A stretch of 64,000 nucleotides of DNA from Edaphobacter sp. 4G125 (lineage in GTDB: Bacteria; Acidobacteriota; Terriglobia; Terriglobales; Acidobacteriaceae), in NCBI RefSeq assembly GCF_014274685.1, contig NZ_CP060393.1, forward strand, positions 2,353,501 to 2,417,500, in the 5' to 3' direction. The notes beneath the pieces are model-generated. The model did not search any database, was not told where the DNA came from, and saw only the letters and a program-made list of their open reading frames with translations. Below, piece by piece: positions 16,427 through 20,815 of the stretch. Each line of letters starts with the position of its first letter. Position 1 is the first letter of the stretch. The position numbers and the translations under genes were made by a program.

Positions 16427-17434
16427 TCAGTTCGTCAGAACTGCACGATACCGCACCTGGTTCTTCTTGACTCGAGCCACAGCTTCATTGGCTTTTGCCA
16501 TATCAAAGGACTCTGTAATCGCCCTTACGCCATGACGGGCAGCGACATCCAGCATCTCGTAGAGGTCCTTTGGGCTTCCCGTCGATGAACCCGAAACCGT
16601 CCGCTGCCCTCCAATCAGAATCGGCACTTGCAGCTGCATCGCCGACGGCGGAGCGCCTAGCATACACAGCACCCCATTCGGACGTAGTGCTTGAAGATAC
16701 GCGGACCAATCTTGCTCTGCATTCACGGTCGAAAGTAGCAGGTCAAAGCCCCCGGCGACCTTCTTGAGGGCCCCTGTGTCCCGTGTATTCACAAAGTGAT
16801 GGGCCCCGAGCTCTCGGGCCTCAACCTCTTTATCTTTCGAGGAGGAGAACGCTGTCACCTCGGCTCCAAACGTTCGTGCAAACTGGATGCCCAGATGGCC
16901 CAGGCCGCCGATTCCGATGATGCCTATCCGAGACGAAGGCCGAACCCCATAGTTGCGCAAAGGGGCATAAACCGTAATCCCGGCGCACAGCAGGGGAGCT
17001 ACATTCTCTCCGTCCAGATTTTTCGGCAGAGGAATGGCAAACCTCCAGTTCACGCGAATCTTGTCGGCAAAGCCTCCATTCCGTCCTACGCAAGTCGGCT
17101 GCGCTAGGGGACACATATGCTCGTTGCCGCTTCTGCACCACTCGCAGATCCCGCAGCTGTCCGCCTGCCAGCCTACCCCGGCCCGCTGCCCCACTGAGAG
17201 GTTGCGCACTTCCGTGCCAACGGCAATCACCGTACCGACGATCTCGTGTCCTGGAATAAACGGATACTGACTGGTTCCCCAGTCGTTGTTAATCAGGTGA
17301 AGATCGCTGTGACATACCCCACAGTGCGAGATCCTGATCTCCACCTCATTGGCTTTCAGCTCGCCCGGATCGAACTTGTATGGCAACAATTGCGCGCCAG
17401 CCGCATGCACAGCGAGGCCTTGAATCTCACTCAT
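16427..17434 (-). CDS. Zinc-dependent alcohol dehydrogenase
   Basis: A 335-residue medium-chain dehydrogenase that oxidises alcohols or reduces aldehydes with NAD(P). The catalytic zinc region is CGVCHSDLH with PGHEIVGTV, the structural zinc site has the four-Cys lobe CGICEWCRSGNEHMC, and the Rossmann fold glycine motif is GIGGLGHLGIQFA. The lobe and the CHSDLH signature fit the AdhA/CAD-like branch. Substrate is not predictable. The gene stands alone, with its own terminator downstream and an upstream space of about 140 bp for a promoter. Confidence 0.9.
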   Translation of the reverse strand: MSEIQGLAVHAAGAQLLPYKFDPGELKANEVEIRISHCGVCHSDLHLINNDWGTSQYPFIPGHEIVGTVIAVGTEVRNLSVGQRAGVGWQADSCGICEWCRSGNEHMCPLAQPTCVGRNGGFADKIRVNWRFAIPLPKNLDGENVAPLLCAGITVYAPLRNYGVRPSSRIGIIGIGGLGHLGIQFARTFGAEVTAFSSSKDKEVEARELGAHHFVNTRDTGALKKVAGGFDLLLSTVNAEQDWSAYLQALRPNGVLCMLGAPPSAMQLQVPILIGGQRTVSGSSTGSPKDLYEMLDVAARHGVRAITESFDMAKANEAVARVKKNQVRYRAVLTN

Positions 17435-17576: not shown

Positions 17577-19469
17577 CTACCGAATCGTAAGATGCAGGAT
17601 CTGGGCCCCGCTCACTGCGTCTCCTGTAGTTACAGAAGCAGCCTCAACGACGCTCTCTCCATTCAGATTAATCCGCTGCGAATCCTTGAGCGGACCCAGC
17701 ACATTCGCCATCGACAGAGGAATTCCCGGCAGCGTGGCTCCTTCTAAAGCTGCCTGCGCTTCTTGGCTGAGTAACGTTACATAGATTCGATTGTTCGCGT
17801 GAAGCCGATTCATCTGGTCGATCGCATCCGCGAGTCCAACCGAACGATTTGCAGAGCTGCTGGAAGCAAGCAGACGATCCACGGTCGCGCCATCACTCAC
17901 CAGCACCCGAAGCGTCCCGCGATTCAGGTCGGCAGGCAACTTAACCTTCAGGCGTACCAGCCTCGGCTCAGCCTGGTACGGTCGCAAGGTCACTTCGGTG
18001 TCGATGGTATCGCCCGCACGAGCTTCCAGAACTCCCAGCCTCGCAGATTCCAGTACGGCCGTCCTGCGTTCCGAAACCCCTTCCATCTTCAGCTTCACGC
18101 CTGTAATCGTTGGTTGATCGAGTGGGTTTCCATAAACCTTGCTGAAGCGGTCGTTCACGAACAGTGCGGCATTGATGGCAGCGGGATTCAGATCGCTCTG
18201 CGTAATCATTCCGTCCAGATGAACGGGAACATGTCCTGCAACGCCGATCTCGCCGGTCAGCCGGTAGCTCATTTCCGCTGCAGCGGAGTTTGTTCCCTGA
18301 AGACTCTGGTACACCGAAACCAGCATCGCTGAAGGAGTCAGCTGGCGATTATCCAGCACCTCGAAGTGAAAGTTTTTTTGCTTCGTCGTCGAGACCGCTG
18401 TTCCAGATGTAGCAGGTTGCTCAATCTCAACCGACACTGGAATCATCCGCGCCTTCTCACCAAACCGGCCCATAATCGCCGATGCGCGGTCCTCCGTAAA
18501 CGCTCCTACAGTCTCTGTCGTATTCACGATCTTGAAGGCATTCAGCGGAGAGGGAAGTGTTGCCACCACAGTCGCCTTTGTCATCGGCATGTCTACCGGG
18601 CCGTACTGCGTAATCGGATGTCCGCAGGCCAACAGCCTCGTCGAATCGACGTACGTCACCGTGCACGTGCCTGCAACCGATAGATCACCCCGCACCAGCA
18701 CGGCACTTACTGCCGAACCCGGCACCAGAGGCTCAGGCTGCGCCGCCGTTGTGTCCGCGCTCCCCAGCCCCGCCACCGGGGTCATCCCCATCTCGCGGAA
18801 CCGGTCTCCAAACAGTTGGACCGTCTCCTGGCTGAACCCACTGAAGACCAGCGGCGTTTCCATCGCCTGCATCTGCAAGTCGTTGCTCGCATTGATGGCA
18901 GGCTTGTCTGCCATGCTCGCCGATGTGTCGTTCTGCCTTGCACCTCGGGCCGATGCAGGAAGCACTGCGCCATCCCTGACTTCCAGCATCTGCTCAATGG
19001 GTGTGATTCCGGCGATCGGCTCTTTACTGAATTGCCCGATCCGGTAGCTCAACGCGCCAACCAGTCTGCCGTCGATGTATACCGGACTTCCGCTCATTCC
19101 GGCCACCACCCCGGTAAACTCCGGCTTCGTTCCGTGCAAGCGCGCCAGAATCATGTCGCGTCCTGGCCCGAGTGAGTCCTTCAAGACCCCCAGTATCTCA
19201 ACCCGCATCGGCTCCGGGTTGACCCCCTCAAAGACGGTATAGGCGACTCCCCACATCCCCTTCTTGAGGTCCGCTAAAGGAAAGATCTTCGTCTCGCCCG
19301 ATCCTCCCATTGCAGCAGCTGCTGTTGGCGGCAGTGGAGCAGTCTCCGTCGCCGCAATTGCAGCAGTTGAACTTGTGCTCTGGGCAGAAACAGGTAAACC
19401 GGCACCGATCGCCCAACCCACCACTCCAAGACCAATCGGCAGCCAACGCGTCTTTCTCTTCTTCATCAC
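17577..19469 (-). CDS. SpoIVB-like S55 peptidase domain protein
   Basis: A 630-residue exported protein with a signal peptide (IGLGVVGWAIGAGLPVSAQ). The block FPLADLKKGMWGVAYTVFEG near residue 63 and GMSGSPVYIDGRLVGAL at 124-140 match the serine region of the SpoIVB (S55) family; the candidate nucleophile is Ser126. A second block, GTCTVTYVDSTRLLACGHP with His284, resembles the histidine region of that family. In Bacillus SpoIVB, as I recall, the His precedes the Ser, whereas here the order is reversed. No PDZ domain is obvious. The C-terminal 300 residues are beta-rich and unassigned. Peptidase activity is inferred only; the role in this non-sporulating lineage is unknown. One frame shift from the divergent VWFA gene by about 170 bp. 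Confidence 0.7.
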   Translation of the reverse strand: MMKKRKTRWLPIGLGVVGWAIGAGLPVSAQSTSSTAAIAATETAPLPPTAAAAMGGSGETKIFPLADLKKGMWGVAYTVFEGVNPEPMRVEILGVLKDSLGPGRDMILARLHGTKPEFTGVVAGMSGSPVYIDGRLVGALSYRIGQFSKEPIAGITPIEQMLEVRDGAVLPASARGARQNDTSASMADKPAINASNDLQMQAMETPLVFSGFSQETVQLFGDRFREMGMTPVAGLGSADTTAAQPEPLVPGSAVSAVLVRGDLSVAGTCTVTYVDSTRLLACGHPITQYGPVDMPMTKATVVATLPSPLNAFKIVNTTETVGAFTEDRASAIMGRFGEKARMIPVSVEIEQPATSGTAVSTTKQKNFHFEVLDNRQLTPSAMLVSVYQSLQGTNSAAAEMSYRLTGEIGVAGHVPVHLDGMITQSDLNPAAINAALFVNDRFSKVYGNPLDQPTITGVKLKMEGVSERRTAVLESARLGVLEARAGDTIDTEVTLRPYQAEPRLVRLKVKLPADLNRGTLRVLVSDGATVDRLLASSSSANRSVGLADAIDQMNRLHANNRIYVTLLSQEAQAALEGATLPGIPLSMANVLGPLKDSQRINLNGESVVEAASVTTGDAVSGAQILHLTIR

Positions 19470-19636
19470 GTCTACAAGACTAGAGCTTGCTCTCCGGCAA
19501 TGCCAGCGGAGATCAGGTTCAAGACTTTACCCTTCAACATGAGGTTCCGTTCGTTCGACGTTTGGCCGTCTTGGAGGTTCTTCTCATCTTCCCTATGGCC
19601 TGCGGCATCGTCCAAAAGAACGGAGTACATTTGCAG

Positions 19637-20815
19637 ATGATGAACTCTTTGGCTCGAACTCTTCGTAAAGCTCCTATTCTGCTTGTCTTCCTGGGTTTAC
19701 TGTTCACATCAGGGGTAACGTTTGCACAAGCCAGCCAGCAGCAGACTCCGCCATCGCAACAGCCCGCCGATGACTCTGCTGGCCCACAGACCGACTCTGG
19801 ACCTATCGTTATCAAAAAGAAGAAGGAAGGCGAAGAACCTCCCCCTGCTCCAGTCGCCCCTCCTGAGCCCAAGATCAAGAATCCCAATAACGAGACCTAC
19901 TCGTTACGGGTCGATGTTCCCATCGTCAATCTCGATGTCAATGTCATCCTGGACAAAACCCATCAGTTCGTCCCCGGACTTAAGAGCGGAAACTTCCTGG
20001 TTCTGGAAGACGGCGTTCCTCAAACGATTACCAGCGTTCGCATGGCCCAGACTCCAATCACTGCTGTGATGCTGCTTGAGTTTGCCGCGAACAGCTACTA
20101 TTTCATCCGCGACATGCAGAACGCCTCCGTCAGCTTCTTCAATACGCTGCGTCCGGATGACTACATCGCCGTCATCACTTACGACCTCCGTACCCACATC
20201 CTCACTGACTTCACCAATAACAGACAGGTCGTTGGTGATGCGCTCTCCTCGTTGATCATTCCAGGCTTCTCCGATACCAACGTCTTCGACGCGCTGTACG
20301 AAACCCTTGACCGTGTCAGCCGTATTGAAGGTCGCAAATACATCATCCTGATTGGGACCGGCCGCGACACCTTCTCCAAGATCACCCTCGACAAGATGCT
20401 TGCCAAGATCAAGGCGACTCCCAACGTCACGATCTTCACCATCGGAACCGGTGCCCTGGTCCGCGAACTTGCCGATGCGCGGGGCTACATGGGCCCCATC
20501 ACCCGCATGGATTATCTCCAGGCGGAAAACCAGATGAAGACCTTCGCCCAGATGACCGGAGGCCTCAGCTTCAACCCAATGTTCCAGGGGGCTCTGCCTG
20601 ACATCTTCTCTCAGATCAACGACTCCATCCGTAACGAGTACGTCCTGACCTATCGGCCGACCAACACGAAAAACGACGGTTCCTACCGGCACATCCAGGT
20701 CAAGCTGGTCGACAACGAAGGCCACCCATTACAGATGCAGGACGAAAAGCATAAATCGCTCAAGTACTCTGTCATCGCCCGCGACGGCTACCAGGCTAAG
20801 CGCGAAGTGGAGTAG
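19637..20815 (+). CDS. Secreted VWFA-related domain protein (acidobacterial type)
   Basis: A 392-residue exported protein belonging to the VWFA-related family that is expanded in Acidobacteriota. The start is taken at MMNSLARTLRK because a clean signal peptide (APILLVFLGLLFTSGVTFAQA) follows; an in-frame upstream extension has no such character. A Pro/Gln-rich linker is followed by SLRVDVPIVNLDVNVIL, FLVLEDGVPQTI and a von Willebrand A fold with FNTLRPDDYIAVITYD and IILIGTGRDTFS. The metal-site loop that normally reads DxSxS is LLEFAANSYYF here, so divalent metal binding is probably lost. The family may mediate protein-protein contacts in the periplasm; function is unproven. Confidence 0.82.
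   Translation: MMNSLARTLRKAPILLVFLGLLFTSGVTFAQASQQQTPPSQQPADDSAGPQTDSGPIVIKKKKEGEEPPPAPVAPPEPKIKNPNNETYSLRVDVPIVNLDVNVILDKTHQFVPGLKSGNFLVLEDGVPQTITSVRMAQTPITAVMLLEFAANSYYFIRDMQNASVSFFNTLRPDDYIAVITYDLRTHILTDFTNNRQVVGDALSSLIIPGFSDTNVFDALYETLDRVSRIEGRKYIILIGTGRDTFSKITLDKMLAKIKATPNVTIFTIGTGALVRELADARGYMGPITRMDYLQAENQMKTFAQMTGGLSFNPMFQGALPDIFSQINDSIRNEYVLTYRPTNTKNDGSYRHIQVKLVDNEGHPLQMQDEKHKSLKYSVIARDGYQAKREVE

Follow-up and report, generated by a model that had tools for sequence, protein, structure and literature searches.

The closest described relative of the protein analysed here is the spore-signalling protease SpoIVB (MEROPS S55, PF05580, TIGR02860, PDB 9lnf). In the B. subtilis enzyme His236 comes first and Ser378 follows 142 residues later (PMC12502668 and the sequence of 9lnf), in agreement with the preliminary description of our locus, which had put a His region ahead of GMSGSP by about 140 residues. 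The accessible part of the same report places Asp363 about 24 Å from His236 and suggests Thr393 as the third catalytic residue. The S55 peptidase SpoIVB is listed as widely detected in acidobacteria in the accessible text of PMC8841776. According to the part available of Antunes 2016 (PMC5007114), the outer-membrane gene cluster of Negativicutes and Halanaerobiales contains three conserved proteins of no assigned function that monoderm Firmicutes lack. Vpar_0521 of Veillonella parvula, a species described as genetically tractable (PMC10665443, in part), is said to have been flagged in that work as possibly related to the outer membrane in diderm Firmicutes, and is reported to combine an N-terminal SpoIVB domain with a C-terminal DUF1090; it is listed as a putative outer-membrane protein, was present in all three outer-membrane extracts, and its role is given as not known in the accessible part of that report (PMC5491611). 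A SpoIVB-domain protein and its outer-membrane link in Firmicutes have already been noticed in print. In the mainly open-access literature that we searched, which left aside bioRxiv preprints and most subscription journals, we found no mention of the swapped order described below, nor of the tie to other phyla or the pairing with a beta-propeller protein.

The gene studied, termed here S55p, lies in a window of 64,000 nucleotides (the whole stretch of DNA that was analysed) of Edaphobacter sp. 4G125, whose 4.25-Mb genome is a single contig with one S55p copy as its sole PF05580 match (Table 1). Reading of the 630-residue frame confirmed the order and distance noted beforehand: Ser126, in GMSGSP, precedes His284, in ACGHP, by exactly 158 residues. 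Standard annotation sees half a domain, since Pfam reports the Ser half alone (PF05580 Peptidase_S55 at residues 78-143, corresponding to profile positions 127-193 of 210, with 32.5 bits against a gathering cut-off of 25), the SpoIVB equivalog TIGR02860 gives 24.5 bits, far below its cut-off of 305, and the PDB sequence search links residues 67-155 to the SpoIVB crystal structure 9lnf without significance (E 0.15). The permuted copy of Propionispora also stays below the TIGR02860 cut-off, with 55.7 bits. PF05580 was matched at E 1 or better in all 30 members of set A1. By Pfam at E 1, the window protein contained neither a trypsin-family domain nor a PDZ domain; among 30 family members scanned, one gave a weak match to Trypsin_2 (E 0.005), one a weak match to PDZ (E 0.02), and three weak matches to MG2 (best E 0.0044). 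The database label 'SpoIVB peptidase' is derived from half a domain, and it would conceal that a trypsin-fold protease has had its halves exchanged in nature.

Table 1. Features of the S55p locus, in positions of the window
Feature	Coordinates	Strand	Remarks
Beta-propeller protein, 740 aa	14105..16327	-	Pfam DUF6923 and Reg_prop above cut-offs; N-terminus signal-like by eye
Zinc alcohol dehydrogenase gene	16427..17434	-	Between S55p and the propeller gene; same by coordinates in L160 and L168
Permuted S55 peptidase-like gene (S55p)	17577..19469	-	630-aa ORF; start GTG at 19469, ATG directly after; N-terminus signal-like by eye
Ser half, residues 60-166	18972..19292	-	Equivalent of the SpoIVB/HtrA C-terminal barrel by PF05580, hhalign and VIA-align
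Ser126 codon	19092..19094	-	Predicted nucleophile, in GMSGSP
His half, residues 245-376	18342..18737	-	Matches the SpoIVB His region (hhalign); model mostly beta strands; fold match to trypsin-fold proteins weak
His284 codon	18618..18620	-	Predicted general base, in GHP; aligned to SpoIVB His236
Asp327 codon	18489..18491	-	Candidate third catalytic residue (putative role); 43 residues past His284, at a strand end in the model
Asp262 codon	18684..18686	-	Conserved; pairs by eye with SpoIVB Asp213 (Asp in 34/36)
C-terminal region, residues 400-630	17580..18272	-	Modelled as strands plus helices; nothing matched in Pfam

Comparison of profiles placed both halves of S55p on SpoIVB, in reversed order. 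The family profile comprised 183 aligned sequences including that of the window (L124 was left out, its frame being a neighbouring one), the SpoIVB sequence was verified against PDB 9lnf over residues 101-426, and the hhalign E-values refer to a single pairwise comparison. Against four SpoIVB sequences, the Ser half (residues 66-165) aligned with SpoIVB 318-415 (E 2.7e-11) and the His half (264-373) with SpoIVB 214-345 (E 2.6e-4), His284 falling on the catalytic His236 rather than in a non-peptidase domain. The His-half score was 40.4, compared with a mean of 14.0 (sd 2.3, maximum 20.5) for 300 column-shuffled SpoIVB profiles and 16.9 for a reversed-profile control. With 36 SpoIVB sequences the match of the Ser half improved (E 3.7e-14, on SpoIVB 318-417), that of the His half weakened (E 0.0025, with a score of 34.6 vs 18.2 for the third match), and the alignment continued, weakly, into SpoIVB 141-213. 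Rotating the blocks of the family profile merged the two local matches into one alignment of 181 columns spanning SpoIVB 214-415, which scored 107.1; the native order scored 90.5, a control in which the C-terminal region replaced the His half scored 92.3, and the deeper SpoIVB set gave 126.2, 115.7 and 118.0, respectively. For single sequences, hmmsearch with the SpoIVB profile ranked the rotated order above the native one in 138 of 183 cases, with a median gain of just 0.6 bits. We also noticed that chain A of PDB 9lnf reads GMAGAP where the SpoIVB query has GMSGSP, that is, two changes in an entry titled S378A.

These alignments suggest that the two halves of the SpoIVB protease core very probably sit in swapped order in S55p, a circular permutation within family S55 as the preliminary description had proposed. 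S55p shares with SpoIVB the serine of a GMSGSP-type motif in a homologous barrel, a His region with a G-H motif whose histidine is homologous to His236, and secretion. It differs in that the His region follows the Ser region (in the window protein and in the complete members aligned), in showing no clear PDZ domain, in having about 230 additional residues at the C-terminus and in its gene neighbours. It is improbable, in our opinion, that kinship with S55 is limited to the Ser half and that the GHP domain, a beta domain of other origin, resembles the G-H motif by chance, with no permutation at all. The Pfam match confined to the Ser half, the weak fold matches of the His half alone and its modest E-value with the deeper SpoIVB set would fit such an explanation; the His-half score far above all shuffled and reversed controls, the superposition of His284 on His236, the invariance of this histidine, the coupling between the halves (see below) and the single continuous alignment obtained by rotation argue against it.

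The AlphaFold2 model of the window protein, based on this sequence and 75 relatives, had a pLDDT of 87.6 and a pTM of 0.85. In a VIA-align search with the full model, residues ~47-170 were superposed on HtrA-type proteases with Z of about 10. HtrA, DegP and DegS are, like the proposed S55p, envelope proteases, and they have the usual His-Asp-Ser order, unlike S55p, together with PDZ domains. The Ser half was superposed on residues 304-416 of SpoIVB 9lnf with Z 9.4 and rmsd 2.5 over 110 aligned residues, so that in the model it corresponds to the SpoIVB/HtrA C-terminal barrel bearing the predicted nucleophile, as would be expected of clan PA. The His half modelled on its own (residues 196-400) had a pLDDT of 90.8 and consisted mostly of strands. 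Its VIA-align matches were weak (best Z 5.9), with 48 of the 50 rows listed being trypsin-fold proteases or their relatives and the other two umbrella-toxin particles; the ranges covered in these weak matches resembled the C-barrel more than the N-barrel, and SpoIVB 9lnf was absent from the rows listed, which is uninformative either way. Foldseek returned no match below E 0.001 for the full or the His-half model.

Couplings between positions were calculated by the mean-field method from 276 rows (Neff 235), and inside each half they agreed with the predicted hairpins. Pairs joining the two halves, which make up 52% of all pairs, occurred 31 times in the top L/2; 12 within-cluster row shuffles gave 4.7 on average and never more than 7, and 12 full shuffles gave none. 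The strongest were V164-A331, A123-V265 and Y131-A253, while T156-P285 ranked lower in the list; A123 sits three residues ahead of Ser126, and P285 adjoins His284. The coupling near the Ser and the His favours contact of the halves and fits an active site that they may share, in one chain or across a dimer. The latter arrangement, in which a domain swap completes the active site, or a related one in which residues 166-195 are cut to give a two-chain enzyme, appears hardly more than a slight chance: this linker is poorly conserved and modelled with low confidence, self-cleavage has been reported for SpoIVB (PMC12502668, accessible part) and coevolution cannot separate contacts within a chain from those between chains, but no direct sign of cutting or of a dimer was found.

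The preliminary description had also judged both blocks to be conserved, and this was borne out in 199 loci (198 distinct) found by whole-protein or profile search with no motif filter, where Ser and His, Ser first, were each present in 198, Asp327 in 198 and Asp262 in 194. The lone locus without Ser and His, L322, is a contig fragment covering neither. A larger set, obtained with the filter and comprising 276 rows (265 distinct sequences, some genes occurring twice), gave counts of 276 for Ser, 276 for His, 275 for Asp327 and 271 for Asp262. We prefer the unfiltered count because the first motif filter missed an AMSGSP variant, which keeps Ser and His and was found by protein search in 6 of 109 acidobacterial loci. 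Of the other alignments, A2 comprised 85 of 104 sequences and A3 the window protein with 75 of 80 loci, omitting L124, whose frame was wrong, the short L177 and L190, L178 with its over-long frame, and L191, a near copy of L184. Ser, His and Asp327 are near-invariant although identity to the window protein falls to 26% among the first 104 sequences, which speaks against a permuted fold that has no peptidase function and serves as a structural or chaperone-like envelope protein. We regard the latter as unlikely; it would agree with the Veillonella protein, which outer-membrane extracts contained and to which the accessible text assigns no role (PMC5491611), and with the absence of any known activity. 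S55p is probably an active peptidase.

Asp327 is the likely third catalytic residue, on the evidence of its conservation and position. In chymotrypsin, Asp102 lies 45 residues after His57. Two SpoIVB residues are candidate counterparts of Asp327: a profile score over gap placements prefers Glu280 (27.0 bits vs 21.7 for Asn290), with 22 of the 36 SpoIVB sequences having Glu or Asp there, while Asn290 is attractive because Asn is kept there in 35 of 36. Thr393 is invariant in the 36 SpoIVB sequences, and the position aligned with it in the permuted family (141) has 166 Ala, 97 Ser, 12 Gly and a single Thr among the 276 rows; since it is mostly Ala or Ser, the role suggested for Thr393 would not be common to the permuted family. 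Asp262, the counterpart of SpoIVB Asp213, is conserved, yet it lies ahead of the His and is not favoured as the third residue. The permuted family may in this way also be relevant to the search for a third catalytic residue in SpoIVB.

The permuted relative of SpoIVB is real and widespread. Among 149 genomes taken from across Acidobacteriota, 139 had an S55p match (129 of the 132 of good quality, 94 of 97 genera), with close relatives such as L160, an Acidobacteriaceae assembly, being 59% identical. By assembly labels, which may err, the matches listed with permuted order came from Acidobacteriota with Aminicenantes, Planctomycetota, Latescibacterota, Poribacteria, Gemmatimonadota, Myxococcales, KSB1, Eisenbacteria, WOR-3, Hebobacteria and Bacillota, so that the family spans some ten phyla; it is large, and most of its occurrences are in bacteria that possess an outer membrane. 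In one assembly labelled Acidimicrobiia (L123) the S55p-propeller pair is like those of Acidobacteriota, and the label may be wrong. A tree of Ser halves split 36 SpoIVB from 276 permuted rows (265 distinct) cleanly, with support 1.0; within it, 33 permuted rows of Bacillota (31 distinct) formed a group of 34 with L185 (support 0.91). The suggestion that the permuted form belongs to a lineage that does not sporulate holds for the genome studied, where S55p is the only PF05580 match, but not for the family, since three Bacillota genomes each carry one normal SpoIVB and, elsewhere in the genome, one permuted gene. Searches with the window protein gave no match in plasmids, and none of 86 pattern matches in viral contigs was confirmed. 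Two records labelled plasmids, L032 (Sedimentibacter) and L033 (Monoglobus), have core genes beside spoIVB (recN and spo0A in the former, dpsA and spo0A in the latter) and may be pieces of chromosomes. None of the neighbours scanned in the window was spo0A.

In the Bacillota sampled, the permuted gene tracks Omp85. Among 199 genomes, with a permuted match counted at E below 1e-40, S55p was present in 50 and Omp85 in 49; both occurred in 47, S55p alone in 3, Omp85 alone in 2 and neither in 147. The Fisher value of this pairing, 2e-39, ignores shared ancestry and therefore overstates independence. The best Omp85 match lay on the S55p contig, 1-12 kb away, in 38 of the 47 genomes. The five exceptions are G187, G229, G257, G291 and G345, and in the three that have S55p alone the matches are partial, with frames of 366, 443 and 389 aa. 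The outer-membrane link is not general, since other diderms are without S55p: PF05580 was found in none of the seven control genomes, out of 14, that have Omp85, and S55p in 30 of 95 genomes (a further match of 19 bits was excluded) and 27 of 99 genomes of two other phyla searched. In Propionispora (L193) the gene order is ChapFlgA-FlgH-FlgI-NAGPA-S55p-MlaE-ABC ATPase-MlaD, which surrounds S55p with outer-membrane and flagellar ring genes. The numbering of Vpar_0521 between DUF2233 (0519) and TolC (0525) fits the order NAGPA-S55p-MlaE; this protein resembles S55p in its reported SpoIVB domain, its conservation in diderm Firmicutes and its presence in outer-membrane extracts, and from annotation and gene order it is a candidate member of the permuted family. 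The DUF1090 reported at its C-terminus (PMC5491611) was not seen in the S55p members scanned. Tracking with Omp85 in the Bacillota sample offers a testable role for a gene of the outer-membrane cluster with no assigned function. The chances of an outer-membrane role for S55p seem evenly balanced.

Outside Bacillota, S55p is mostly accompanied by a beta-propeller gene. In 61 loci of a set of 80 (62 by a looser first count), such a gene directly followed S55p in the same orientation; these loci are the best 80 of at least 310 confirmed by a pattern scan with GMSGSP in one pattern, so that the set is no census and its motif counts are biased; five of the 19 loci without the propeller had a flank shorter than 600 bases. 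Propeller matches elsewhere in the 80 loci numbered three, among them L130, where the match is also downstream, in an over-long frame. Within flanks of ~1.5 kb, the downstream propeller was found in 19 of the 29 loci from Acidobacteriota, in 25 of 30 loci of the phylum of G152 (labelled Myxococcales) and in 22 of 28 of that of G153 (labelled Planctomycetota); in Bacillota it was found in none of 30 loci within ~1.5 kb and was absent also from the three longer loci. Homologues of the alcohol dehydrogenase were found downstream of S55p in seven other loci.

We consider S55p to be, with good probability, a secreted serine peptidase with a permuted trypsin fold (clan PA) that acts in the diderm envelope and is a homologue of the SpoIVB catalytic domain. 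The chain would run from the Ser barrel through the linker to the His region and then to a C-terminal region absent from SpoIVB, with Ser126 predicted to attack, His284 to act as the base and Asp327 to be the likely third residue. In most loci outside Bacillota the co-encoded secreted beta-propeller would be a likely partner that may help to bind substrates or to regulate the enzyme, and S55p would most likely cut periplasmic or outer-membrane clients in biogenesis, quality control or signalling. A broader reading, which we put forward only tentatively, is that of an old, largely vertical envelope peptidase of diderms, propeller-paired outside Bacillota and placed in the outer-membrane cluster of diderm Bacillota, which a single ancient rearrangement would have separated from SpoIVB, making the spore-signalling protease and the outer-membrane protease sister families; the Ser-His-Asp327 triad would have been kept, and its SpoIVB counterpart would be Glu280 or Asn290, neither of them being Asp363 or Thr393.

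On the other side of the gene, a minus-strand neighbour family occurs upstream of S55p in 14 loci. In the window, a VWA protein of the acidobacterial TIGR03436 type (141 bits) is encoded at 19487-20815 on the plus strand, opposite to S55p, its start being 18 bases from that of S55p.
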